Shown here one piece after another: positions 35,469-48,892 of a stretch of DNA of 64,000 nt. The position numbers and the translations under genes are program-made. Source of the stretch: Sinorhizobium fredii NGR234 (GTDB lineage: Bacteria > Pseudomonadota > Alphaproteobacteria > Rhizobiales > Rhizobiaceae); the NCBI RefSeq assembly GCF_000018545.1, contig NC_012586.1:1426001-1490000 (forward strand), written 5' to 3'. Every line of letters begins with the position of its first letter. Position 1 is the stretch's first letter. The notes under the pieces were generated by a model, which saw only the letters and a program-made list of their open reading frames with translations, was not told the origin of the DNA and searched no databases.

Positions 35469-36695
35469 CTATTTCACAATGGTCCTGATTTTGGCGACAG
35501 ATTCGAGCGTGCGATGGACGGGACACTTGTCGGCAATCTCGGCAATCTTGCCGCGAAGTTCCTCGGAAACCTCGCCGCCGACAGAAATGATCCGGTCAAA
35601 ACGGTCGATCCTGCCGTCACCGCTGCGTTCCGAATTGGTGCATTCCTCGCAGTCCTTGGCGTGAATTTTTGCATGCGAGACGTCAACGCCAATTCGCCCG
35701 AGGTTCAGCTTCTTGTGTTCGGCGTATAGCCGCAGCGTCATCGATGTGCAGGCGCCGAGGGCGATCGACAGGAAGTCATAGGGTGATGGCCCGGAATCGA
35801 GCCCGCCCGCGGCTTCGGGCTCGTCGACGAAAAGCCGGTGTCCGCCCGCCTGAACTGCGTTCTGAAACTTGCCTTCGCCTGTTTCCGTGACCCGGACATG
35901 TTCGATCGGCTCCGTGCCCTGCGGCGTGTCGGCGGCGAGATAACGCGTCAGCCATCCCGAAATGATCCGGCCGGCGAAGGCCGCGTCTTCAGGGTCGGTG
36001 AGCAGGTGGTCGGCCTTGTCGAGCGAAACAAAGCTCTTCGGATGTTTGGCCGCCAGGAAGATTTCGTTGGCGTTCTCGATTCCAACTGTCTGGTCCAGCG
36101 GCGCGTGCAGGATGAGGAGGGGCTTTTTCATCCGCGCAACGGCGTCCTTGATGCGCTGTGCGCGCGCGTCCTCGACGAACTGCTTTTTGACGAGGAATCT
36201 GCGCCCGGCCAGATCGACTTCGGCGGCGCCGCTCGCCTCGATCTCCTCGAGGCTCGCTCCAAAATTCTTCAACACATGGCCGACATCGGCCGGCGCACCG
36301 ACCGTGGCAACAGCGCGCACTTCGGGTATTTCCCCGGCGACGGCCAGGACCGCTGCGCCGCCGAGAGAGTGGCCGATCAGCAATGACGGCGCCTGGTAGT
36401 GTCGTCGCAGATAGTCGGCGGCCGAAAGGAGGTCGCCAACATTGGAGGAGAAGTTCGTCGAGGCGAATTCACCCTCGCTCGATCCCAAACCGGTGAAATC
36501 GAAGCGCAGGACGGCGATACCTTCGCGTGCAAGCTCCGCCGCAACGCGCCGTGCCGCCGCGAGGTCCTTGGAACAGGTGAAGCAATGCGCAAAGAGCGCG
36601 TAGGCGCGCAAAGGCCCGTTGGGGAGATCCAGGCGGGCGGCCAGGGTTGCGCCGGAGTGGCCGGCAAACTGAAGACGTTGCGTATTGAAGGCCAT
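35469..36695 (-). CDS. Bifunctional alpha/beta hydrolase-OsmC family protein
   Basis: A 408-residue fusion. The N-terminal half is an alpha/beta hydrolase with nucleophile Ser in GHSLGG (about residue 109) and an HCFTCSKD oxyanion region. The C-terminal half is an OsmC domain with both redox cysteines (GACTSMTLR and DKCPVHR), the signature of organic hydroperoxide peroxidases. This two-domain form is widespread in proteobacteria. It probably detoxifies lipid hydroperoxides, or hydrolyses and reduces them. It converges on cysA. Confidence 0.92.
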   Translation of the reverse strand: MAFNTQRLQFAGHSGATLAARLDLPNGPLRAYALFAHCFTCSKDLAAARRVAAELAREGIAVLRFDFTGLGSSEGEFASTNFSSNVGDLLSAADYLRRHYQAPSLLIGHSLGGAAVLAVAGEIPEVRAVATVGAPADVGHVLKNFGASLEEIEASGAAEVDLAGRRFLVKKQFVEDARAQRIKDAVARMKKPLLILHAPLDQTVGIENANEIFLAAKHPKSFVSLDKADHLLTDPEDAAFAGRIISGWLTRYLAADTPQGTEPIEHVRVTETGEGKFQNAVQAGGHRLFVDEPEAAGGLDSGPSPYDFLSIALGACTSMTLRLYAEHKKLNLGRIGVDVSHAKIHAKDCEECTNSERSGDGRIDRFDRIISVGGEVSEELRGKIAEIADKCPVHRTLESVAKIRTIVK

Positions 36696-37107: not shown

Positions 37108-37434
37108 GGTAGCCGATTCCTTGGCTTTGCCAGATCTACTCCGATCATCGTATCCTTCATCCACCGTCCTCTCTGTTCTGTGGCCTACACCACATCACCT
37201 TGACACATTGCGATGCCGTTAGGGCAGGACGGCAACCACCCCCATTTGCCAAGCGACAGTCGGTCTGGCGGCATTGCGCCTGAAGGTGTTGAGCCGACGT
37301 CGCGGGCTTCTACAGAACAGCCAGAAATCCTCCTCCGCCACTTGCGATGACCGGCAAGTAATCCTCGATCAAAATTCAGCCGTTGCGACAAAGCTGATAT
37401 ACTGCTGCGGCGGCCGCCTACAGGGAGGCAAAGC

Positions 37435-39084
37435 ATGAGCGATCAAATTGTGCGCATATTGCTTGTCGAGGATAACCCGCTCCACGCAAAGTTGATCCAG
37501 AGGCTGCTCGACACCGAAATGCAGTTGCGCTGCGAGGTGGTGGCGGTGGATCATTTGTCCGACGGGCTTGGACAGCTTGAGCGGGGCGCGACTGATCTGG
37601 TGCTGCTCGACCTGATCCTGCCGGACAGCCAGGAGCTGGAGACGCTGTTCAGAATCCGATCGGCTGCTCCGGATGTCCCGGTGGTGATCCTGACCGGCCT
37701 CGACGATGTGAAGCTCGCGGCCCACGCGGTCGAGGCAGGTGCCAGCGACTTTCTCTTGAAGACGAGGCTCAACGGCGTCGCGCTCGACCGGGCAATCCGC
37801 TACACGCTGGCGCGCAAGCGCGCGCATGGCGGCGAGTGGGACTCGCCGATGTTCCGGCTCGCCCAGCAACAATTCCTGAAGGCCGCCCAGATCATGAATC
37901 TGGATGACAACATCCGCCAGCGGTTGCTGTTCCCGCAGCGCACCCAGGTGGTGTCGTTCCCGTTCTTCCGCGACGACCGCGCGCAGGTCGAGACCGTCTT
38001 CGGATATCGGGTGCAGCATGTCCTGACGATGGGGCCCACCAAGGGAGGCATTCGTTATCACGAGGATGTCGATCTTGGCGATGTCGCGGCGCTGGCGACC
38101 TTGATGACCTGGAAGTGCGCGCTGATGCGGTTGCCCTTTGGCGGCGCCAAGGGTGGTGTGCGGGTCGACCCAACCGGTCTTTCGAAAAGCGAACTGCAAC
38201 GGCTGACCCGGCGCTATACCGCCGAGATCATCGACATCATCGGGCCGGACAAGGACATCCCGGCGCCTGACATGGGGACCGACGAGCAGGTGATGGCCTG
38301 GGTGATGGACACGTACAGCCAGCAGGTTGGCCACGCGGTTCCGGCGGTGGTCACAGGCAAACCGGTGGTGCTCGGGGGGTCGCTCGGACGCAAGGAGGCG
38401 ACCGGGCGCGGGTTGGTCTATGTCATAGAAGCAGCCGCTGAGATGATCGGGTTGGACCTGGCCAAATCCTCAGCCGTGGTGCAGGGGTTCGGCAATGTCG
38501 GCAGCTTCGCCGCGCGTTTTCTGGCCGAGGCGGGCGTCAAGATTATCGCCGTCAGCGACATCTCGACCGGGCTCTACAACCGCGCCGGCCTGTCAGTGAA
38601 TGCGCTCTTGGAGTATGTGGCCAAAAATCGGGCGCTGGCGGGCTTTCCCGATGCGGAGCCGATCTCAAACGCCGAGCTTCTGGAACTGGAATGCGATGTC
38701 CTGGTTCTGGCGGCGCTGCAAAATCAGGTAACCGCCGAGAACGCCGGAAGGATCAGGTGCCGGTTGCTCGCCGAAGGCGCAAACGGCCCGACCACGCTCG
38801 AGGCAGACGAGATTCTCAACGAGCGTGGCGTGCATATCATCCCCGACATTCTCGGCAATGCTGGCGGAGTGACTGTTTCCTATTTCGAGTGGGTGCAGGG
38901 TCTGCAGAACCTGACCTGGACGCTCGATGAAATCAATCACCGGCTCAAGGCGATCTTGCTCGATGCATTTGCGCGGACGCGGCGACGTGCGGAAGATGAC
39001 CAGTCGGACTTGCGTACCGCTGCCTTGATCGAGGGGATCGCCCGCGTGACCCAAGCCAAGCTGCTGCGCGGTCTTTTCCCATAA
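37435..39084 (+). CDS. Receiver domain fused to Glu/Leu/Phe/Val dehydrogenase
   Basis: A 549-residue fusion. Residues 1-125 are a complete response-regulator receiver: acidic E12/D13, phospho-acceptor D59 (VLLDLILPD), T87 and K109. Residues 138-549 are a full glutamate-dehydrogenase-type enzyme: substrate/catalytic Lys in MGPTKGGIRYH and KCALMRLPFGGAKGG (K227, K239), catalytic D279 (PAPDMGT) and a Rossmann motif QGFGNVGSF. It would interconvert an amino acid such as glutamate and its 2-oxo acid with NAD(P). The receiver probably controls activity or assembly by phosphorylation. GGGAGG precedes the ATG. The hybrid kinase gene starts 38 bases downstream, an obvious partner. Such a fusion is not a standard architecture I know. 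Confidence 0.93.
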   Translation: MSDQIVRILLVEDNPLHAKLIQRLLDTEMQLRCEVVAVDHLSDGLGQLERGATDLVLLDLILPDSQELETLFRIRSAAPDVPVVILTGLDDVKLAAHAVEAGASDFLLKTRLNGVALDRAIRYTLARKRAHGGEWDSPMFRLAQQQFLKAAQIMNLDDNIRQRLLFPQRTQVVSFPFFRDDRAQVETVFGYRVQHVLTMGPTKGGIRYHEDVDLGDVAALATLMTWKCALMRLPFGGAKGGVRVDPTGLSKSELQRLTRRYTAEIIDIIGPDKDIPAPDMGTDEQVMAWVMDTYSQQVGHAVPAVVTGKPVVLGGSLGRKEATGRGLVYVIEAAAEMIGLDLAKSSAVVQGFGNVGSFAARFLAEAGVKIIAVSDISTGLYNRAGLSVNALLEYVAKNRALAGFPDAEPISNAELLELECDVLVLAALQNQVTAENAGRIRCRLLAEGANGPTTLEADEILNERGVHIIPDILGNAGGVTVSYFEWVQGLQNLTWTLDEINHRLKAILLDAFARTRRRAEDDQSDLRTAALIEGIARVTQAKLLRGLFP

Positions 39085-39122
39085 GGCCCCTGAACATCCC
39101 ACCCGGGCATGGAGGGATCTAA

Positions 39123-42092
39123 ATGACCAGGAATACCGACGTCACTGACACGTTCCGCACCGAGCGCACGCTTGCGAAGCAGCTCGAAGCTGCCCAGGCT
39201 GCACAGGCTCGGGCAGAAGCGGCACGCGACAGTCTTCTGGATGGGATCGAGTCAGCTTTGGAAGGTTTCGTTCTTTATGATGCCGACGATCGAATGGTCG
39301 CATTCAACTCGCGCTTCGAGGAGCTGTTTTCGCCGAGAGTCAAGCTCGGAATGCGCTTCGAGGACCTGATCCGTTCCGCTGTGGAGCAGGGGGTGGCCCC
39401 AGTAGGCGAGTTGGGTGTGGAGGAGTGGGTCGCGCGACGCATGGAGCGCCATCGAAATCCGGGCCCACCATTCAAGCTCAGGCTTAACAACGGGACATGG
39501 ATTCGCATTAGTGAGGGCCGGACCCGCGATGGCGGCCTGGTCGGCGCCTATACCGACATTACTGAACTTGAGGAACAGCGCGAGCATCTTGAGGAACTGG
39601 TCGAGACAACCGAGGCCGCAACCGAGCGAGCCAAGGCGGCGCAAAGGCAGCTCTTGGACGCAATCGAGTCGTCCCTCGAGGGCTTCGCCCTCTATGATGC
39701 CGACGACCGGCTGGTGGTCTACAATTCGCGCTACCGGGATTTCTTTTCAGGGCCGGAGCGTGCCGTCCTGCCTGCCGGACCATTTGCCGTCGAAACTCCG
39801 GGCACGCCGTTCGAGCTGGTGATCCGTACCTTTGCGGAAAGCGGCTTGTCGCCGCTCGACGGCCAGACGGTCGACGAATGGATTGCCCAGCGCCTCGAGC
39901 GCCATCGCAATCCGCGCGGGCCCTTTAATTTAATGCACAAGGATGGGACCACTATCCGCGTCAGCGAGCGCAAGACCAGCGACGGCGGAACGATCTGTGT
40001 CTATTCCGACATCACCGAGCTTGAAGAGCACCGCCATCGCCTGGAGGAACTGGTTGCCAAGCGCACGGCCAAGCTGGAGCGGCGCACGGAGCAACTGCGC
40101 AAGTCGCGTGAGGAGCTTGAGCGCGCCCGCGACGCGGCCGAGCAGGCAAGCATTGCCAAAAGTGAGTTCCTTGCGAATATGAGCCACGAGATTCGCACCC
40201 CCATGAACGGTGTGATCGGCATTGCGGAACTACTCGAAGGCACTGAGCTTTCCGAACAGCAGCGCAGGTACGTCTCGATCATCCTCCATTCCGCCGACAC
40301 GCTGATGGACCTGATCAACGACATTCTCGACTTCTCGAAAATCGAGGCTGGCCGCTTGGAGCTCGAGACGATCCCGTTCGTGCTGCGCGACACATTGGGT
40401 GACACGCTGCAAACGCTCGCCAAACGCGCTGCCGACAAAGGCCTCGAGCTTGCCTGCCATATCCCTCCCGAGGTGCCGGATCACTTGATGGGGGATCCGA
40501 CAAGGCTCCGGCAGATCATCGTCAACCTTGTCGGGAATGCGATCAAGTTCACCGAGAATGGCGAGGTCGTGGTTGATGTCACTTTGGTGGGCCAGGGGGA
40601 CCACGGGGCGCACCTTCAGTTCGAGGTACGCGACACGGGCATCGGCATTCCGGAAGCACAGCAGGAGCGCATATTCGAGGCTTTCGCCCAAGCCGACGCC
40701 TCGACGACGCGGCAATACGGGGGCACCGGGCTCGGCCTGGCGATCGCCGCACAGCTTGCCGAGAAGATGGGTGGACGGATGCAGCTCGACAGCAAGCCCG
40801 GCGTCGGCAGCGTTTTCACCTTCGCAGCCGATTTCGGGCTCGCGCCGGAGGAAGGGAAGGCGCGCCCGGTGCGCGAGGCAGAGTTGCATGGTCGTCGCGT
40901 ACTGGTGGTCGACGACAACGCCACCAATCGGCAGATTCTCGAGGAAATCGTCGTCAACTGGGGCATGATCCCGATTGTCGCAACAGACGGCATGGCAGCA
41001 CTCAACGCACTCGAACAGGCATCCGGTGCTCTGCCGGACCTCGCGCTTCTCGACGTGATGATGCCCGGGATGAGCGGTTTCGAACTTGCGGCCTGTTTGC
41101 GGCTGCGCTCGGGTCTCAAGGATACCCGAATTGTCATGATGTCGTCCGCAGGCCGGCCGAGTGACGAGGCACTGCTGCAAAAGCTGGATGTCTCCAGATT
41201 GCTGGTGAAGCCTGTCAAACAGTCCGATCTCCTGAACGCGATCACCAACGCCCTTGGCGTCTCGATGCGGGAAGACGAGGGCGATGGTCCAGCCGGCGCG
41301 GCACGCCATCGGACCAGCCCGGGCCTCACCGTGCTGCTCGCCGAGGACGGCGCGGTCAATCGGCAGGTCGCGGTCGATCTTCTGACCAAGCGCGGGCACA
41401 GGGTCGTGGCCGTCGGGAATGGCCAGGAGGCAGTTGAAGCTGTCGAAAGGGGAGGTTACGACCTGGTGCTCATGGACGTGCATATGCCGGTCATGGACGG
41501 GCTCGCCGCGACCGCCGCCATCCGGGCGCTCATTCGGCCCGAGAGCGCCCGCGTGCCGATTGTCGCGCTGACCGCGAGCGCGACCGCTGCCGATCGCGAG
41601 CGCTGCGTCGCGGCGGGAATGGATGGCTACGTGACGAAACCATTCCGCGCCACCGAGCTGTTCCATGTGGTTGAACAATATGACCTCAAGCGGATACCGG
41701 AACCGAAAGAGCCGGCCGCCCATCAACCATTGGGTCTGGCGGCTGCGGACGCATCGGTGCTGGATTGGGAGCGTGCTCTGCGCAATCTCGATCGGAACGA
41801 GGCTCTGCTGCGCGAGTTGGCGGCAATGTTCCTTGTCGAGTATCCGAAGCTGGTCGCCGCAATCGACGCGGCGTATGCCGACGGCGATGCCGCGGAGTTG
41901 CGGCGTGCAGCCCACACCTTGAAGGGCTCGGCGGATGTGATCGGCGCTGATGGCGTGGCGATCGCAGCACAACGCGTTGCGGATTTGGGCCGCGAAGGCA
42001 ATCTTGCATCCCTGCGAGAGGTCCGTGGCGCTATGACAGCTGAGCTGGCTCGCCTGCAGCCCTTGCTCCAAGCAGCGGCATCGGACGCTTAG
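39123..42092 (+). CDS. Soluble hybrid histidine kinase with two PAS, two receivers and HPt
   Basis: A 989-residue protein without membrane helices. Two tandem, mutually similar PAS units (about 35-150 and 174-300, each starting LLD-IES-LEGF-LYDADDR) precede a coiled coil and a HisKA domain with H355 (NMSHEIRTPMNG). An ATPase domain follows (N472 in NLVGNAIKF; DTGIGIP; GGTGLGL). Then come receiver 1 (D644), receiver 2 (D785, LVLMDVHMP) and a C-terminal HPt domain with H931 (HTLKGSA). This is a BarA-like phosphorelay protein. Its HPt could phosphorylate D59 of the co-transcribed receiver-dehydrogenase. GGAGGG precedes the ATG. Confidence 0.95.
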   Translation: MTRNTDVTDTFRTERTLAKQLEAAQAAQARAEAARDSLLDGIESALEGFVLYDADDRMVAFNSRFEELFSPRVKLGMRFEDLIRSAVEQGVAPVGELGVEEWVARRMERHRNPGPPFKLRLNNGTWIRISEGRTRDGGLVGAYTDITELEEQREHLEELVETTEAATERAKAAQRQLLDAIESSLEGFALYDADDRLVVYNSRYRDFFSGPERAVLPAGPFAVETPGTPFELVIRTFAESGLSPLDGQTVDEWIAQRLERHRNPRGPFNLMHKDGTTIRVSERKTSDGGTICVYSDITELEEHRHRLEELVAKRTAKLERRTEQLRKSREELERARDAAEQASIAKSEFLANMSHEIRTPMNGVIGIAELLEGTELSEQQRRYVSIILHSADTLMDLINDILDFSKIEAGRLELETIPFVLRDTLGDTLQTLAKRAADKGLELACHIPPEVPDHLMGDPTRLRQIIVNLVGNAIKFTENGEVVVDVTLVGQGDHGAHLQFEVRDTGIGIPEAQQERIFEAFAQADASTTRQYGGTGLGLAIAAQLAEKMGGRMQLDSKPGVGSVFTFAADFGLAPEEGKARPVREAELHGRRVLVVDDNATNRQILEEIVVNWGMIPIVATDGMAALNALEQASGALPDLALLDVMMPGMSGFELAACLRLRSGLKDTRIVMMSSAGRPSDEALLQKLDVSRLLVKPVKQSDLLNAITNALGVSMREDEGDGPAGAARHRTSPGLTVLLAEDGAVNRQVAVDLLTKRGHRVVAVGNGQEAVEAVERGGYDLVLMDVHMPVMDGLAATAAIRALIRPESARVPIVALTASATAADRERCVAAGMDGYVTKPFRATELFHVVEQYDLKRIPEPKEPAAHQPLGLAAADASVLDWERALRNLDRNEALLRELAAMFLVEYPKLVAAIDAAYADGDAAELRRAAHTLKGSADVIGADGVAIAAQRVADLGREGNLASLREVRGAMTAELARLQPLLQAAASDA

Positions 42093-42387
42093 TCCAAGCG
42101 CGCTTTGGCCCGATCGCATTAAGGTCCGTCAACCATCGCCTCAGCAGGCATGTACTAGATTGGGCCGCTGGTAGTTCTCCAGTCGCCGTAGAAGGCGTCC
42201 GGTGCGCGCAATGCGGGGCCATCGATATCGATTCCATGCCGCCGGCTACGATGATATCCGCATCGCCGGCCGTGATCTGCTGCATGCCAAGTGCCACGGC
42301 GCGGAGCCCCCGAACCGCAAAGCTGGTTCAAGCCGTCCTTTCCTACGGAAGTCCTGCCTTCATTGCTGCCTGGCCGGTTCTGCCCCT

Positions 42388-42396: not shown

Positions 42397-43695
42397 CAGG
42401 GCTGTCCGGGGAAAGTTCAGGCATAGGCGAAGGCCATCTGGTTGGGGTTTGTTGTGGGTTTTGGTCGGCTTGGATTGACGGGCGGCGGCTTGTCGATGGC
42501 GGCAATGCATTTGCGCTGGAACAGGCATTGGGTGACGAGGTCGGTGAAGCGCAGGATCGGCAGGGTGAGGCGCCAGAGGCGGGTGGCGATGCGCAGCAGC
42601 GCATAGGCGACCATCGCGGCTAAGATCTGCAGGCGGATGGCGTTGTCGTTGTTGCCGAGGAACTTGCGGATCTTCAGGTGCTGCTTGATCCAGCGGAACA
42701 GCAGCTCGATCTGCCAGCGGCCCTTGTAGAGCTGGCCGATGGCGACGGCCGGGCGCTTGAGGTCGTTGGTCAGCAGCGTAATGGTGTCGCCGTCGGCGCG
42801 CTTGACGGTGATGCGGCGCAAGCCGATCGGCAGCTTGGAATCGCCCTTGCTGGCAAGGCGCACCCTGGCGTCCTCGAGAACCGTGAAGCCGTCGCCCTCG
42901 GCGGCCGTGATGCGCCGCTTGCGCACCACCTTCAGCGCCATATTGACCTTCGGGCGGGTGACGAAGACGGCCTTGGCGGCGGCGATCGCCGTCCACCAGC
43001 CATAATGGCAGTAGCCCTTGTCGAAGACGTAGGTGGCGCCTTTCTCGATCGTCACGGTGCGGCCGATCTGGGCGTCGTTGACGTTGGCGTCGGTTATGTC
43101 GAGGAGGCGCGGGCAATCGGCCTTGGGGTCATAGACGACATGCAGCTTCATGCCGCGGATGCGGCCGTTCGACTTGGCCCAGTCGCATAATTTGCCGAGC
43201 GGGATCGGCGTCGAATCGATCAGCCGCAGCATCTTGCTGCCGTCGCGGCGCGTCTGCCGGTCGAGCTGGCCGGCGACAAGCGCAAAAGTCTCGGCGAAGA
43301 CGGCCACCGGCCGGCGGGCATTGGCATCCGACAGCGTCGAGCGCAGCAGCCGGGCGCTGCCGAGGTGGTAATGCTGCTGGGCGTTGGCATTCCAGCCCGC
43401 CTCCAGCCCGCGCAGGCTGGTCGCGGCGCTGAACTGGGCATAGATCAGCGCCACCAGATGGTCCCAGCTGGTGAAGCGCTTGTCATAGGCATCGCCGCCA
43501 TGGCGATCGACAATCGCCTGGAAGCTGCGGCGATCAATGGCTTTCAGCAGCTGGCCGAAAATGCTAGGGCTGAACCGCATGCTCCGTCTCCTTTTCTGAG
43601 TCTCGACAACCAGAAAATAGACGGAAAACCGCCGTCTGACGGGGCATGCGCCTGCGGCATTTCGATTCACCCGGAAAGTTCCCCGGACAGCCCTG
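42397..43695 (-). mobile_element. IS4-like insertion sequence, 1,299 bp, apparently intact
   Basis: The element is bounded by inverted repeats sharing a perfect 17-bp end, CAGGGCTGTCCGGGGAA, then partly matching sequence (left AGTTCAGG, right CTTTCCGG). Perfect 9-bp target duplications flank it. It carries one full-length transposase gene on the minus strand. Intact ends, duplications and reading frame suggest recent insertion. It lies in an already or subsequently decaying thiolase gene. Confidence 0.88.
42417..43580 (-). CDS. IS4-family transposase (DUF4372 N-terminus, DDE domain)
   Basis: A 387-residue transposase. The N-terminus (FGQLLKAIDRRSFQAIVDRH) is the DUF4372-type domain found in many IS4-family enzymes. 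The DDE catalytic part shows the first Asp in LIDSTPIPL, the second in TYVFDKGYCHYGWW and the Glu in GRWQIELLFRWIKQHLKI (the YREK-like region). GGAGACGGAGC precedes the ATG at 43580. It ends 20 bases from the left IS end. Confidence 0.93.
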   Translation of the reverse strand: MRFSPSIFGQLLKAIDRRSFQAIVDRHGGDAYDKRFTSWDHLVALIYAQFSAATSLRGLEAGWNANAQQHYHLGSARLLRSTLSDANARRPVAVFAETFALVAGQLDRQTRRDGSKMLRLIDSTPIPLGKLCDWAKSNGRIRGMKLHVVYDPKADCPRLLDITDANVNDAQIGRTVTIEKGATYVFDKGYCHYGWWTAIAAAKAVFVTRPKVNMALKVVRKRRITAAEGDGFTVLEDARVRLASKGDSKLPIGLRRITVKRADGDTITLLTNDLKRPAVAIGQLYKGRWQIELLFRWIKQHLKIRKFLGNNDNAIRLQILAAMVAYALLRIATRLWRLTLPILRFTDLVTQCLFQRKCIAAIDKPPPVNPSRPKPTTNPNQMAFAYA

Positions 43696-43704
43696 CGCCG
43701 GCGG
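43696..43704. repeat. Right 9-bp target-site duplication of the IS
   Basis: CGCCGGCGG, identical to the left copy at 42388-42396. Confidence 0.8.
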
Positions 43705-43772
43705 GAAGAACTTGGCCGAGGATTACTTCGTCCACCTCTCCTGCGTCGACGCCCGCCCGCTCGAGCGCTGCC

Positions 43773-43847
43773 TTTTCCTGGGATCATCCAGTTGGCTGTA
43801 TCGCCACCTTCGCTGACCTCCATGGCGCCGAGCACCGTCAAGTCTCC
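43773..43847 (-). pseudogene. Fragment of 3-oxoacid CoA-transferase subunit B
   Basis: Twenty-five codons read GDLTVLGAMEVSEGGDTAN then WMIPGK, matching the conserved core of ScoB/AtoA-type CoA-transferase beta subunits. The matching frame stops being ScoB-like at both ends. At its 3' side it abuts the thiolase fragment within a GGAAAAGG stretch. This looks like a deletion that fused two neighbouring genes of a former acetoacetate or beta-ketoadipate pathway. The 218 bp beyond it, to the fic stop, hold nothing recognisable. Confidence 0.65.
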
Positions 43848-44065
43848 CGGGCTATTGGCCGCCGACTTCCAACCCCGGATGGGATCGACTACGTCCATCT
43901 TGTGCTCGAACCCGAACGACGGCAACGGCGACACTTTGCCGTCATAGTATGCGCGAAATCCGAACGACCGGCACGGGTCGAGGACGCGCCACTTTGCGCG
44001 GCTCGTTCCGAGGGGATGTTCGCGTCCTGCGCTGGAAGATCGCATAATGTATCGACCGGAACTCT

Positions 44066-45238
44066 CTAGCCGCTAGCTCCGTCGCTGAGTATTTCCATGT
44101 AGGCGCGGTAGACGAACACTCGGCCACGGCGCCGGCCTGTTGCTTCTTCAACGATCCCGAGTCTCCGGAGTTGATCGAGGGCCGCGTTGACGGTCGGCAT
44201 TGTCAGCCCGCTCCGCTTCATTGCTGTGGAGGCAGTCAAGTAAGGGCTTGTGCGCATGGTTTCATGGATCTGGAGGACCGATCCCGTACGCTCAGCCTCT
44301 CTTATGATCCGTTCGCGGTCGCCCTCGAACAGTCGAGCAATTTGATTGGCAGTCTCAAACGCTTGTTCCGCTGTTTCGGCGATTCCGTCGAGAAAGAACT
44401 CGAGCCAAGCTTCCCACGTGCCGAATTCGCGGACTTCCTGCAGGAGGCGGTAATAGTCGGCCCTGCGGGATTTAAAATAGAGGCTGAGGTAAAGCAGGGG
44501 CTGTCGAAGTACGCCCGTGGCGCAAAGGAATAGCGTGATCAGGAGCCGACCGAGACGGCCATTGCCGTCCAGGAAAGGATGGATGGTTTCAAACTGGACG
44601 TGGATAAGCCCCGCTTTGATCAGAGGGGGAATGTCGGGCGTGTCCAGATGAAGGAACCTTTCCCATTCCCCCAGGCAACTCATGACTTCATTGGGAGGAG
44701 GGGGCACGAACATGGCGTTTCCTGGCCGAGTTCCGCCGATCCAGTTCTGGGACGTGCGGAATTCACCAGGGCTCTTCGTCCCTCCGCGGCCGCTGTCCAG
44801 CAATCGCTGATGCATCTCCCGAATTAGGCGCAGGGATAGTGGTAGCTGTTCCAGGCGCTCGAGGCCAAACATCATGGCATCGACGTAGTTGGAGACTTCG
44901 CGAATATCGTCGACGGGCTCGCCACCGATCGCCTCCGTTTCGAAGCGCAGTAGGTCGGAAAGCGTCGATTGGGTGCCCTCGATTTGGGATGACAGGACCG
45001 CCTCTTTGCGCACATACATATAGAGGAAGAGTTCCTTATTGGGTAACAACACGGAAACACCGTCCAGCCGTCCGAGCGCTCGCTCGGCCGCGCTGAGACG
45101 AGTGAGCAGGCCGGTGATCGCGATTGGCGGAACCGGGGGAAGGGGAGGCGGCACAAACGCCTTGACGCGTTCGCCACCGACAGCGGTTTCCACGAAGCGA
45201 CCCAGCCGCTCGTTGGTGTTGGGATTGTTGCTGCGCAT
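44066..45238 (-). CDS. Fic-family AMPylase with winged-helix C-terminus
   Basis: A 390-residue protein. The Fic motif HPFLDGNGRLGR (220-231) is complete, with the catalytic His. An N-terminal inhibitory helix motif, SSQIEG (83-88), fits the class II (S/T)xxxE(G/N) type, so the enzyme is probably self-inhibited until activated. A Fic/DOC N-terminal domain precedes it. The C-terminal region (about 325-385: TASTAMKRSGLTMPTVNAAL, then DQLRRLGIVEEATG) is a winged helix. It is a stand-alone gene; targets are unknown. A palindrome upstream may be bound by the protein itself. Confidence 0.93.
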   Translation of the reverse strand: MRSNNPNTNERLGRFVETAVGGERVKAFVPPPLPPVPPIAITGLLTRLSAAERALGRLDGVSVLLPNKELFLYMYVRKEAVLSSQIEGTQSTLSDLLRFETEAIGGEPVDDIREVSNYVDAMMFGLERLEQLPLSLRLIREMHQRLLDSGRGGTKSPGEFRTSQNWIGGTRPGNAMFVPPPPNEVMSCLGEWERFLHLDTPDIPPLIKAGLIHVQFETIHPFLDGNGRLGRLLITLFLCATGVLRQPLLYLSLYFKSRRADYYRLLQEVREFGTWEAWLEFFLDGIAETAEQAFETANQIARLFEGDRERIIREAERTGSVLQIHETMRTSPYLTASTAMKRSGLTMPTVNAALDQLRRLGIVEEATGRRRGRVFVYRAYMEILSDGASG

Positions 45239-46000: not shown

Positions 46001-46300
46001 TCATGTTGCAGTTTTCTGCTTCAACGAGGCGATAAACTCGTGGAGCCCGGCGCGCAGGGGATCAAACAAGGGGTTCTTCTTTTCCCTTATCATGACTTCG
46101 CCGAGCAATTTGGTCCCGACAGCCACGGCGGCAGACGCGTTCGAATCGAGGCCGGAACCGTTGCGCATGCGTTCGACAATGCCGAGAATGTCATCATGGC
46201 TGACGTGTTCGAAGGTCAGCGACGCTGGGTCGGTCGGAACGCTGCCGTCGCGTGCGCGAACAAGCTTCAGCGATATCTCATAGGTGTAGCCGGAAGCCAT
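46001..46300 (-). CDS. DUF3861 family protein
   Basis: A 99-residue protein (YTYEISLKLVRARDG... FEHVSHDDILGIVERMR) matching the small DUF3861 family, of unknown role. I use the ATG at 46300, where GGGA precedes by six bases; an upstream extension is possible but lacks support. It lies between the DCC and gfa genes on the same strand. Confidence 0.75.
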   Translation of the reverse strand: MASGYTYEISLKLVRARDGSVPTDPASLTFEHVSHDDILGIVERMRNGSGLDSNASAAVAVGTKLLGEVMIREKKNPLFDPLRAGLHEFIASLKQKTAT

Positions 46301-46412
46301 GATCATTCCCGTGGTTGGCTGCTGTGCGTGGATGGTTGGCGGCGATTGATTGTCTTCTAGCGCCCGACCGATCAATCCGCCTGCCTTTAGGCGAGCAGGC
46401 CCGATGGTCGGC

Positions 46413-46991
46413 TCAGTTGTGCTGCGCCGTTTTGGTTCTGGCCGCCGTCCAGGACGCGATGTAGTCCATCAATGCCGGGGACAGGCAATCATATGGCGCA
46501 AGTCCCAACTCGGTGAGGCGCTTTCGGATCCCCTCCATCGCTTTCGGATCCGCGCCCGCTTCGATGATGGACGAAACAAAGGCCGCAAATCCGGGTTCCT
46601 GCCAGCCACTCTCCTGAAAACGCTCCGGATGAATGAAGTCGAGGCCCTGGAAGGGATGCTCGCGTTCGACCGGCCCGTACATGTGGACGCCGCATTCTGT
46701 GCACGCATGCCGCTGGATCAGCGCCGCCGGATCGACAACGGCAAGCTTGTCGCCGTTTTCCAGGACCGTCACCTTGTCGTGCGGTGCGACGGCGACCATC
46801 GAAAAGGTTGCGCCTGCAGGTTTCCAGCATTTGGTGCAGCCGCAGACGTGATTGTGCGCGATCGGCCCCTCCACCCTGACTTTGACCGGGCGCTCCGTGC
46901 AGGCGCAGACGAGCACTCCGCCGGCAAATGCCTCGGCACTCCGCGGGATGCCTTGGTCGATAAGGGGGTGGATCGAGATGGAATTTGTCAT
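46413..46991 (-). CDS. gfa: S-(hydroxymethyl)glutathione synthase (glutathione-dependent formaldehyde-activating enzyme)
   Basis: A 192-residue zinc protein that speeds condensation of formaldehyde with glutathione. Cys ligands are visible in [16 protein letters not shown] and HACTECG. AAGGAGG precedes the ATG at 46991. It follows adhC on the same strand by 67 bp, giving the two-step formaldehyde detoxification operon. Its presence beside a P450 cluster suggests formaldehyde is released by oxidative demethylation in that pathway. Confidence 0.93.
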
Positions 46992-47058
46992 GGCTTCCTC
47001 CTTGTTGCGCAGTGCGGTGCCGGTTCGTGCAAACAAAATTTTTTGGCGGCTTTCTTCT

Positions 47059-48171
<1,113 letters not shown>

Positions 48172-48229
48172 ATGGAACCCTCCCTCGGTGCAAGCCGTCT
48201 GGCGGCATTGACGTTCGCATTGGTTTGTA

Positions 48230-48245
48230 GATACTAAGTGGTATC
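48230..48245. promoter_or_regulatory. TetR-type operator O1 (adhC-gfa promoter)
   Basis: GATAC-TAAGTG-GTATC, a 5-bp inverted repeat with a six-base centre, 59 bp upstream of adhC (minus strand). It shares exact arm spacing with six other sites in the next 15 kb. Confidence 0.72.
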
Positions 48246-48358
48246 CGAAATTGCAAGACACAGTTTCGAGGTGTTGTTCACAAGATCGGCTCGCGAGAGG
48301 CGCACGCCGCCGGGCGAGCGAGATCAGGCTTTAAACGAGAAGATATCGGGAGGTTTGA

Positions 48359-48523
48359 ATGTTTGACGTCGCTGGAGCTCAGCCGCAGCGAGATTCGCGG
48401 GCTGAAGTGAAGATACCGGTCCCCTCAGTTGGAGTCCTCGCCCCGCCAGAGTCTCGTCAGATGCGCGATACGACAGCAGCGAGTGGCGGCAAGCGCCTGA
48501 TCGAAGCGCCCGAAGCTGCATAG
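48359..48523 (+). CDS. Possible 54-aa protein before doxX
   Basis: GGGAGG five bases before an ATG opens a 54-codon frame (MFDVAGAQPQRDSRAEVK ... LIEAPEAA) ending 12 bases before doxX. The good ribosome site argues for translation, perhaps as a leader. The protein is Pro/Ala-rich with no known domain. The rest of the 364-bp gap between adhC and doxX holds only the operator at 48230. Confidence 0.35.
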   Translation: MFDVAGAQPQRDSRAEVKIPVPSVGVLAPPESRQMRDTTAASGGKRLIEAPEAA

Positions 48524-48535
48524 GAGGGCCTGGCA

Positions 48536-48892
48536 ATGGATCTCCTCCTCGTCGAGCCGAGCTCAATCCTCCGGGTGCTGTGCGGCCTGTGGTTCCTTCC
48601 CCATTGCATCGGCAAGATGCGCAATGTCGGGCCTGCCTCGGCAACATTTGCCAAGGCCGGGTTCCATCCGCCTAGTGCATTCGTGATCATTACGATCATC
48701 GCGGAGCTGATTGCTGGCACCGGACTGGTTTTCAACATCTTACCGCAGCTTGCCGCGGGCTTGGCCGTCGCCGTTCTTCTTGGCGCCAGCTATGCCGTCG
48801 TTCGGATAAATGGATGGAACTGGCGGTGGCAGAAGCAGGGACCGGAATTCATGGTGTTCTGGTCGGCAACCTGCATCCTGACCGTGCTTTGA
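48536..48892 (+). CDS. DoxX-family membrane protein
   Basis: A 118-residue protein with four hydrophobic segments and the DoxX-like pattern (RVLCGLWFLPHCIGKM near the N-terminus; ELIAGTGLVFNI mid-protein). DoxX proteins are associated with quinone-linked oxidation or membrane redox complexes, but most have no assigned role. AGGAGGG precedes the ATG. It precedes tetR on the same strand by 68 bp, with an operator between. Confidence 0.82.
   Translation: MDLLLVEPSSILRVLCGLWFLPHCIGKMRNVGPASATFAKAGFHPPSAFVIITIIAELIAGTGLVFNILPQLAAGLAVAVLLGASYAVVRINGWNWRWQKQGPEFMVFWSATCILTVL

Follow-up and report, generated by a model that had tools for sequence, protein, structure and literature searches.

A conserved receiver–glutamate dehydrogenase fusion with an adjoining hybrid kinase suggests direct phosphorelay control of a metabolic enzyme

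Introduction

Two-component signalling is generally described as leading to DNA binding, second messengers or chemotaxis, and the response regulators with enzymatic output include CheB, PleD and the GGDEF group, RpfG, and RsbU-type proteins. Can a receiver also act directly on a central metabolic enzyme? The question is raised by a 64,000-nucleotide stretch of Sinorhizobium fredii NGR234 DNA (hereafter, the window), which holds a two-gene cassette on contig C2 of the three-contig, 6.9 Mb genome. A first-pass annotation, made from the letters alone, had proposed that phosphotransfer from a soluble hybrid kinase onto a receiver fused to glutamate dehydrogenase (GDH) changes amino-acid and 2-oxo-acid flux. 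Taken as a whole, that interpretation is partly supported by the analysis reported here. Our preferred reading is that a phosphorelay running H355-D785-H931-D59 probably tunes the GDH through a near-continuous helix.

Results

The cassette comprises two genes on the + strand of the window, separated by 38 bp in the open reading frame list. The first encodes a receiver–GDH fusion of 549 residues (REC-GDH; 37435..39084) and the second a hybrid phosphorelay kinase of 989 residues (39123..42092). A ribosome-binding-site-like AGGGAGG precedes the REC-GDH ATG. Upstream of it lies a conserved leader (37369..37434, +), at whose edge homology to four Sinorhizobium/Ensifer loci begins (37356 or 37369). 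The leader contains a promoter-like CTGATATACT at 37394-37403, and all seven aligned sequences have CTGATATACT, which we regard as a candidate promoter. In protein and species-genome searches, the closest relatives of the cassette came from Sinorhizobium fredii and Ensifer. On the upstream side, the window also encodes an alpha/beta hydrolase fused with an OsmC-like domain (35469-36695, −).

Pfam placed a Response_reg domain at residues 8-110 of the fusion (37456..37764; E 2.2e-19, 70.1 bits against a cut-off of 30.2), followed by ELFV_dehydrog_N at 167-295 (3.9e-51) and ELFV_dehydrog at 314-546 (4.7e-75). Both ELFV domains are complete (PF02812, 172.6 bits; PF00208, 252.8 bits). The receiver carries the hallmarks of a response regulator: the acidic pair E12 D13, the presumed phospho-acceptor D59 (37609-37611), T87 and K109. 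The GDH part, residues 138-549 (37846..39081), is defined by Pfam, structure matching and residue conservation. It aligns with the GDH chains 1b26 and 1b3b of the hexameric Thermotoga maritima enzyme, a member of the ELFV family, up to their last residue, and keeps the catalytic sites. Unlike REC-GDH, the Thermotoga chains have no receiver in the matched stretches; among the best 60 of 110 structure matches, no best-aligned stretch begins before residue 131. Catalytic and substrate-site equivalents, with the roles that such residues have in other GDHs, are K203, K227, K239, D279 and S482. In a 90-row alignment (A1), K203, K227, D279 and S482 are invariant and K239 is conserved in at least 90% of rows. 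REC-GDH is a complete receiver and a complete glutamate dehydrogenase in one open frame, as the first-pass annotation had claimed, and every receiver residue and the catalytic Lys and Asp that it named were found in place. No NCBIfam match reached its curated cut-off among the best 25 of 77 matches (the highest, GdhB_Halo, scored 472.1 bits against 620), so no existing equivalog can be assigned to REC-GDH.

We then considered whether the fused frame is real. An annotation or assembly artefact would mean two separate genes, or an internal GDH start at M139, and two database entries of 411 residues that lack the receiver (P0066 and P0102) do begin at the equivalent of M139. The DNA record corresponding to P0102 (NXT3, H6) nevertheless encodes all 549 residues, and current annotation agrees, so the short form of P0102, the one of the two entries traced to DNA, reflects start-site choice. 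In the window DNA, an AGGAGG-like stretch is absent directly before M139. Of the 80 best loci, 56 contain the fused frame, which a contig end cuts short in three of them (L033, L047 and L076); it also occurs in 168 database proteins, and eight Sinorhizobium/Ensifer plasmid records match it with 92-96% identity across all 549 residues. This recurrence makes chance and assembly error very unlikely; a split gene or mis-assembly was rejected on the same grounds. The artefact reading is already largely refuted, and we give it a very small probability.

To what extent is this architecture shared? The protein search scored 8000 candidates, and of the best 120 examined, 118 combine a receiver with both ELFV domains, P0066 and P0102 being the two without a receiver. 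Queried alone, the receiver retrieved 110 proteins joined to an ELFV domain and ten joined to other outputs among its best 120. Across species genomes, 495 relatives were confirmed; the 80 top-ranking loci, to which all locus counts here refer, comprise 56 REC-GDH fusions and 24 GDHs without a receiver. The architecture search that the first-pass annotation had called for came back positive in both collections. Record titles and tree labels place the fusions of the best 80 loci in at least five phyla: Pseudomonadota, Gemmatimonadota, Latescibacterota, Myxococcota and Planctomycetota. Distribution is patchy at closer range: of 33 genomes in the genus, 6 gave a full-length match, the genome itself included, and of 190 genomes in the class, the window's own was the sole hit at E <= 1e-140. 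On the GDH tree, the label 'fusion' needs three changes; the tree is compatible with a single origin of the fusion followed by receiver losses. Judged by its recurrence, REC-GDH is a conserved family.

Residue conservation was scored in 225 rows of fusions, 213 of them distinct, drawn from the 56 loci, 168 proteins and the window itself; the ten non-GDH receiver proteins are left out. Loci and proteins partly overlap, and the rows are non-independent samples. In the receiver, D59 and K109 are present in all 225, E12 in 224, D13 in 223, and T or S at position 87 in 223. In the GDH part, K203 is kept in 221, K227 in 222, K239 in 222, D279 in 224 and S482 in 217 (6 gaps). Rows deviating at a GDH lysine or at D279 are P0122, P0147, P0178, the partial P0179 and L058. 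Two Planctomycetota fusions, L048 and L051, have a broken acidic pocket in the receiver, and these two and L058 are decayed fusions without an adjoining kinase. We count the pocket damage and the altered lysines (L058, P0147, P0178, P0122 and P0179) against the phosphorelay reading.

These data also bear on the idea of a receiver that serves as a passive phosphate sink, or survives as a leftover, on a constitutively active GDH. The damaged pockets fit that idea, as does the finding that REC-less relatives reach 76% identity in the GDH part. Set against this, D59 and K109 are invariant although the receivers are only about 58% identical on average (43 kinase-linked rows), a pattern that suggests purifying selection on the switch. 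We consider a passive receiver very improbable.

The joint between the two halves is similarly constrained. In an AlphaFold2 model built with the 90-row alignment (mean pLDDT 86.3), receiver helix alpha5 is prolonged into a linker (residues 114-136; 37774..37842), breaks at residue 137 and is followed by the first GDH helix (138-153). Confidence at the joint is moderate, with 10-residue block means of pLDDT of 77-85 over residues 111-140 and 77-92 over 111-150. The spacing from K109 to F147 is 38 residues in 224 of the 225 fusion rows, the exception being P0179, an entry of 325 residues. A helical joint of fixed length is what a receiver acting mechanically on the GDH would predict. Inter-domain covariation (MI-APC) was not enriched, with 170 pairs among the top 549 where 226 were expected, and this deficit counts, if anything, slightly against receiver–GDH coupling.

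Alternatively, the receiver might govern where the GDH is located or how it assembles, through dimerisation, filaments or kinase recruitment, and leave the catalytic constants unaffected. The ten non-GDH receiver relatives among the best 120 carry, by their domain accessions, GGDEF, PP2C-like or kinase-type outputs, and alpha5-mediated dimerisation is a common device among receivers with such outputs. GDH of this kind is a hexamer, and six receivers would be expected to crowd its surface. The near-invariant linker length and the near-continuous helix favor tight mechanical coupling over a loose tether, and we judge control of location or assembly alone to be unlikely.

Downstream of the fusion, the kinase contains two PAS_7 domains, HisKA (345-410; 40155..40352), HATPase_c (457-569), two receivers, the second at 41331..41672, and a C-terminal Hpt domain (898-979; 41814..42059). 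H355 in HisKA, D644 and D785 in the first and second receivers, and H931 in the HPt domain are all present, making this a hybrid phosphorelay kinase; the four residues sit where the first-pass annotation had put them. It shares the HisKA-HATPase-receiver-HPt chain of the BarA/ArcB/TorS-type unorthodox kinases, and BarA is its best NCBIfam match. It differs from those kinases in that a pair of receivers, both with their key residues intact, precedes the HPt. Its BarA score stays below the family cut-off (513.8 against 890 bits), and no NCBIfam match of the kinase reaches a cut-off among the best 25 of 157. In the S. fredii NXT3 plasmid locus (L088, 7796-10643), the annotation splits the kinase into two coding sequences that overlap, a PAS part and a kinase part.

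Is the kinase always a neighbor of the fusion, as the first-pass annotation had asked? At a threshold of 200 tblastn bits, a kinase adjoins 42 of the 56 fusions (on the same strand in 39, of which 34 are downstream and 5 upstream, and convergent in 3) and none of the 24 REC-less relatives, six of which (L057, L069, L072, L075, L078 and L080) have less than 1.5 kb of downstream DNA. Adjacency by chance was rejected on this control set. Among the REC-less loci, L074 shows a weak match of the kinase type (96.7 bits) on the opposite strand about 4.8 kb away; at L050, the one neighbor scanned is a CorA protein.

Adjacency is common, but it is not universal. Of the 56 fusions, 14 showed no kinase, 11 of them with flanks longer than 4 kb on both sides. 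Nine are from Planctomycetota (L027, L031, L035, L041, L043, L048, L049, L051 and L064); the others are L025 and L058, plus L040, L047 and L076 with at most 1150 bp downstream. The 11 amply flanked fusions count against the phosphorelay reading. No histidine kinase turned up among eight neighbors scanned at five of the Planctomycetota fusions (L043, L041, L035, L031 and L048), a set that contains a transketolase, a sigma factor, two sulfatases and a Ser/Thr-kinase WD40 protein.

Where a kinase is present, its relay residues are nearly constant. H355 is found in 43 of 43 aligned kinases and D785 in 42, with one gap. The HPt domain lies within the kinase in 36 of 43 and in a separate gene in 5, together 41; of the remaining two, L022 is cut by a contig end and at L033 an HPt was not found. 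Stand-alone HPt genes, each of about 120 codons with Pfam Hpt scores of 44-60 bits, occur in the order kinase, HPt, REC-GDH at L042 (5570-5944), L044 (5594-5971) and L046 (5609-5986), and next to the kinase at L037 (5770-6141) and L038 (10427-10792). L038 is counted here as having a separate gene, its in-kinase alignment match to H931 having been forced. Receiver and kinase distance matrices correlate with r 0.896 over 43 rows, a value reached by 0 of 1000 permutations (best 0.27); such a correlation also follows from joint inheritance of neighbors, from which the permutation test cannot separate co-evolution. On adjacency, matching distance matrices and the near-constant presence of an HPt, the adjoining kinase is very probably the partner of REC-GDH.

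The neighborhood also speaks to a reversed flow of information, in which GDH binding glutamate, 2-oxoglutarate or NAD(P)H would set the readiness of D59 for phosphorylation or dephosphorylation, and the enzyme would report metabolic state to the kinase and to any other HPt partner. The anatomy would be identical to that of the preferred reading, and control of a regulator by GDH is known in principle: a review passage describes direct interaction of GDH with the transcription factor GltC. Greedy clustering of open frames gave a kinase cluster that spans 35 loci, whereas the next one made of real neighbors spans 5 (cluster c2, with 10 loci, is built from frames that run antisense across the fusion or the kinase). 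The kinase is therefore the only commonly recurring neighbor, and a further receiver protein adjoins few fusions, such as L036 and L024. Nearly every row retains the catalytic residues of GDH, which argues that the enzyme is not merely a sensor. A reversed flow seems to us improbable.

We compared the sensor regions of eight partner kinases, estimating transmembrane (TM) segments with a simple hydropathy window. The relay core is constant across the eight, with the HPt of L044 in its own gene, and the fronts differ: GAF-PAS-PAS_7-PAS_7 in L006, CHASE-GAF-PAS_7 in L008, YfiR-like in L007, multi-TM plus PAS in L023 and L032, CHASE in L044 and L045, and no domain in L026. By the same hydropathy measure, the window kinase has no TM-like stretch before HisKA. 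The label 'soluble' in the first-pass annotation thus suits this kinase, but it does not carry over to the family, in which many partners have TM-like stretches.

In all three Nitrococcus-clade loci, an H-NOX gene (PF07700, E 7.6e-38 to 2.8e-37) lies beside a sensor-less kinase and precedes it: L026 (9799-10386, −), L029 (6644-7195, −) and L030 (9799-10350, −). The three loci group together in the GDH tree, and all three H-NOX genes contain YxSxR, the H-NOX haem motif. A small gene upstream of H-NOX on the same strand falls in the same cluster in all three and gives a weak globin match in L026 (E 7e-05). H-NOX proteins are bacterial nitric oxide sensors, and nitric oxide systems that pair H-NOX with a hybrid kinase include HnoK and its relatives. 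The position of H-NOX next to a sensor-less partner kinase suggests nitric oxide as the input of the Nitrococcus-clade REC-GDH relay. As in the HnoK systems, the H-NOX gene adjoins the kinase; unlike in those systems, the likely output is a GDH. The window kinase, for its part, has PAS domains, and a scan of ten window proteins around the cassette detected no H-NOX.

Finally, DNA comparison addressed how the cassette travels. Similarity to the four Sinorhizobium/Ensifer loci runs from window position 37356 or 37369 to 42061-42101 at 85-89%, and the 3' side diverges immediately past the kinase stop. In three of the four, the cassette with its short leader is the only shared DNA in the 24.7 kb compared. 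At L015 a second region, window 46019-48712, is also similar (73-83%), and a piece of 477 bp is additionally common to L003 and L015. By these alignments, the cassette moves as a two-gene unit. In the GDH tree, the rhizobial copies have Zobellella and Halomonas as neighbors, a placement that points to lateral transfer. GC content is 0.627 in the cassette and 0.624 in the window, so composition gives no foreign mark. Directly downstream of the cassette, the window has an IS4-type transposase gene (42417-44045, −) and then a gene for a Fic-family protein (44066-45238, −). On an Ensifer adhaerens plasmid (L089, 1-5275), the genes upstream of the cassette encode methylaspartate ammonia-lyase, whose annotation mentions anaerobic glutamate catabolism, a CoA ester lyase and fumarate hydratase.

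Discussion

How might such a relay work? The PAS pair of the kinase would sense a cytoplasmic cue, upon which the kinase would autophosphorylate H355. The phosphoryl group would pass to the kinase receivers, most likely to D785 (the first-pass annotation had offered D644 or D785), then to H931 of the HPt and on to D59 of REC-GDH. Phosphorylation of D59 would shift the alpha4-beta5-alpha5 face of the receiver. As alpha5 leads into the first GDH helix over a constant distance, interrupted once, its shift may alter GDH domain movement or hexamer packing, and the proposed result would be a changed glutamate/2-oxoglutarate flux. The sequences themselves establish the two genes with their domains and key residues, the constant linker length, the conserved kinase neighbor, and the inheritance and movement of both genes together; that phosphate is transferred, in which sequence, how the shift couples to the enzyme, and in what direction and how strongly activity would respond are inferred.

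A broader reading holds that the relay core and REC-GDH have spread across phyla as a transferable switch on nitrogen flux, with sensors repeatedly exchanged and direct, transcription-free His-Asp control exerted through a rigid alpha5. This input-swappable switch is, in our estimation, an evenly balanced proposition.

Enzyme-output regulators provide a close precedent. Like them, REC-GDH has an N-terminal receiver with an intact phosphorylation site followed by an enzyme, and usually adjoins a histidine kinase gene. Unlike them, it carries a dehydrogenase of central metabolism as its output, where they have signalling enzymes.

The architecture has been touched on before. Table 1 of P2CS (2009; PMC2716373) lists EC 1.4.1.3 GDH as 'Probable' among two-component enzymes, an entry that probably reflects REC-GDH in the genomes of that year. 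It is one table line, and its section gives no sequence, partner, conservation or mechanism. A 2018 archaeal census (PMC5847659) notes, citing older work, bacterial receivers joined to 'standard metabolic enzymes'. The same part of the census describes archaeal receiver-enzyme fusions as narrow in phyletic distribution, whereas REC-GDH occurs in several bacterial phyla. Among titles and abstract openings in the open-access literature (in some listings the best matches of more, for example 20 of 1,036), we found no experimental study of REC-GDH. The idea put forward in the first-pass annotation is not entirely new, as these two sources had already hinted at the architecture type.

If the preferred reading is correct, the junction of ammonium, 2-oxoglutarate and glutamate would be under direct and widely distributed phosphoryl control, and the enzyme could be adjusted by a signal without a change in gene expression. 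REC-GDH would offer a rare chance to see a receiver drive a classical allosteric enzyme, as well as a plug-in for engineering signal-controlled metabolism, and the Nitrococcus version supplies a testable input in nitric oxide.

The genome of the window (G000) contains one further small ELFV-type GDH frame, on contig C1 (163615-164832, −), with an in-frame TAG within the match, and a large Bac_GDH. With one of the other GDHs interrupted and the other of the large type, the cassette may encode the main small GDH of this genome.
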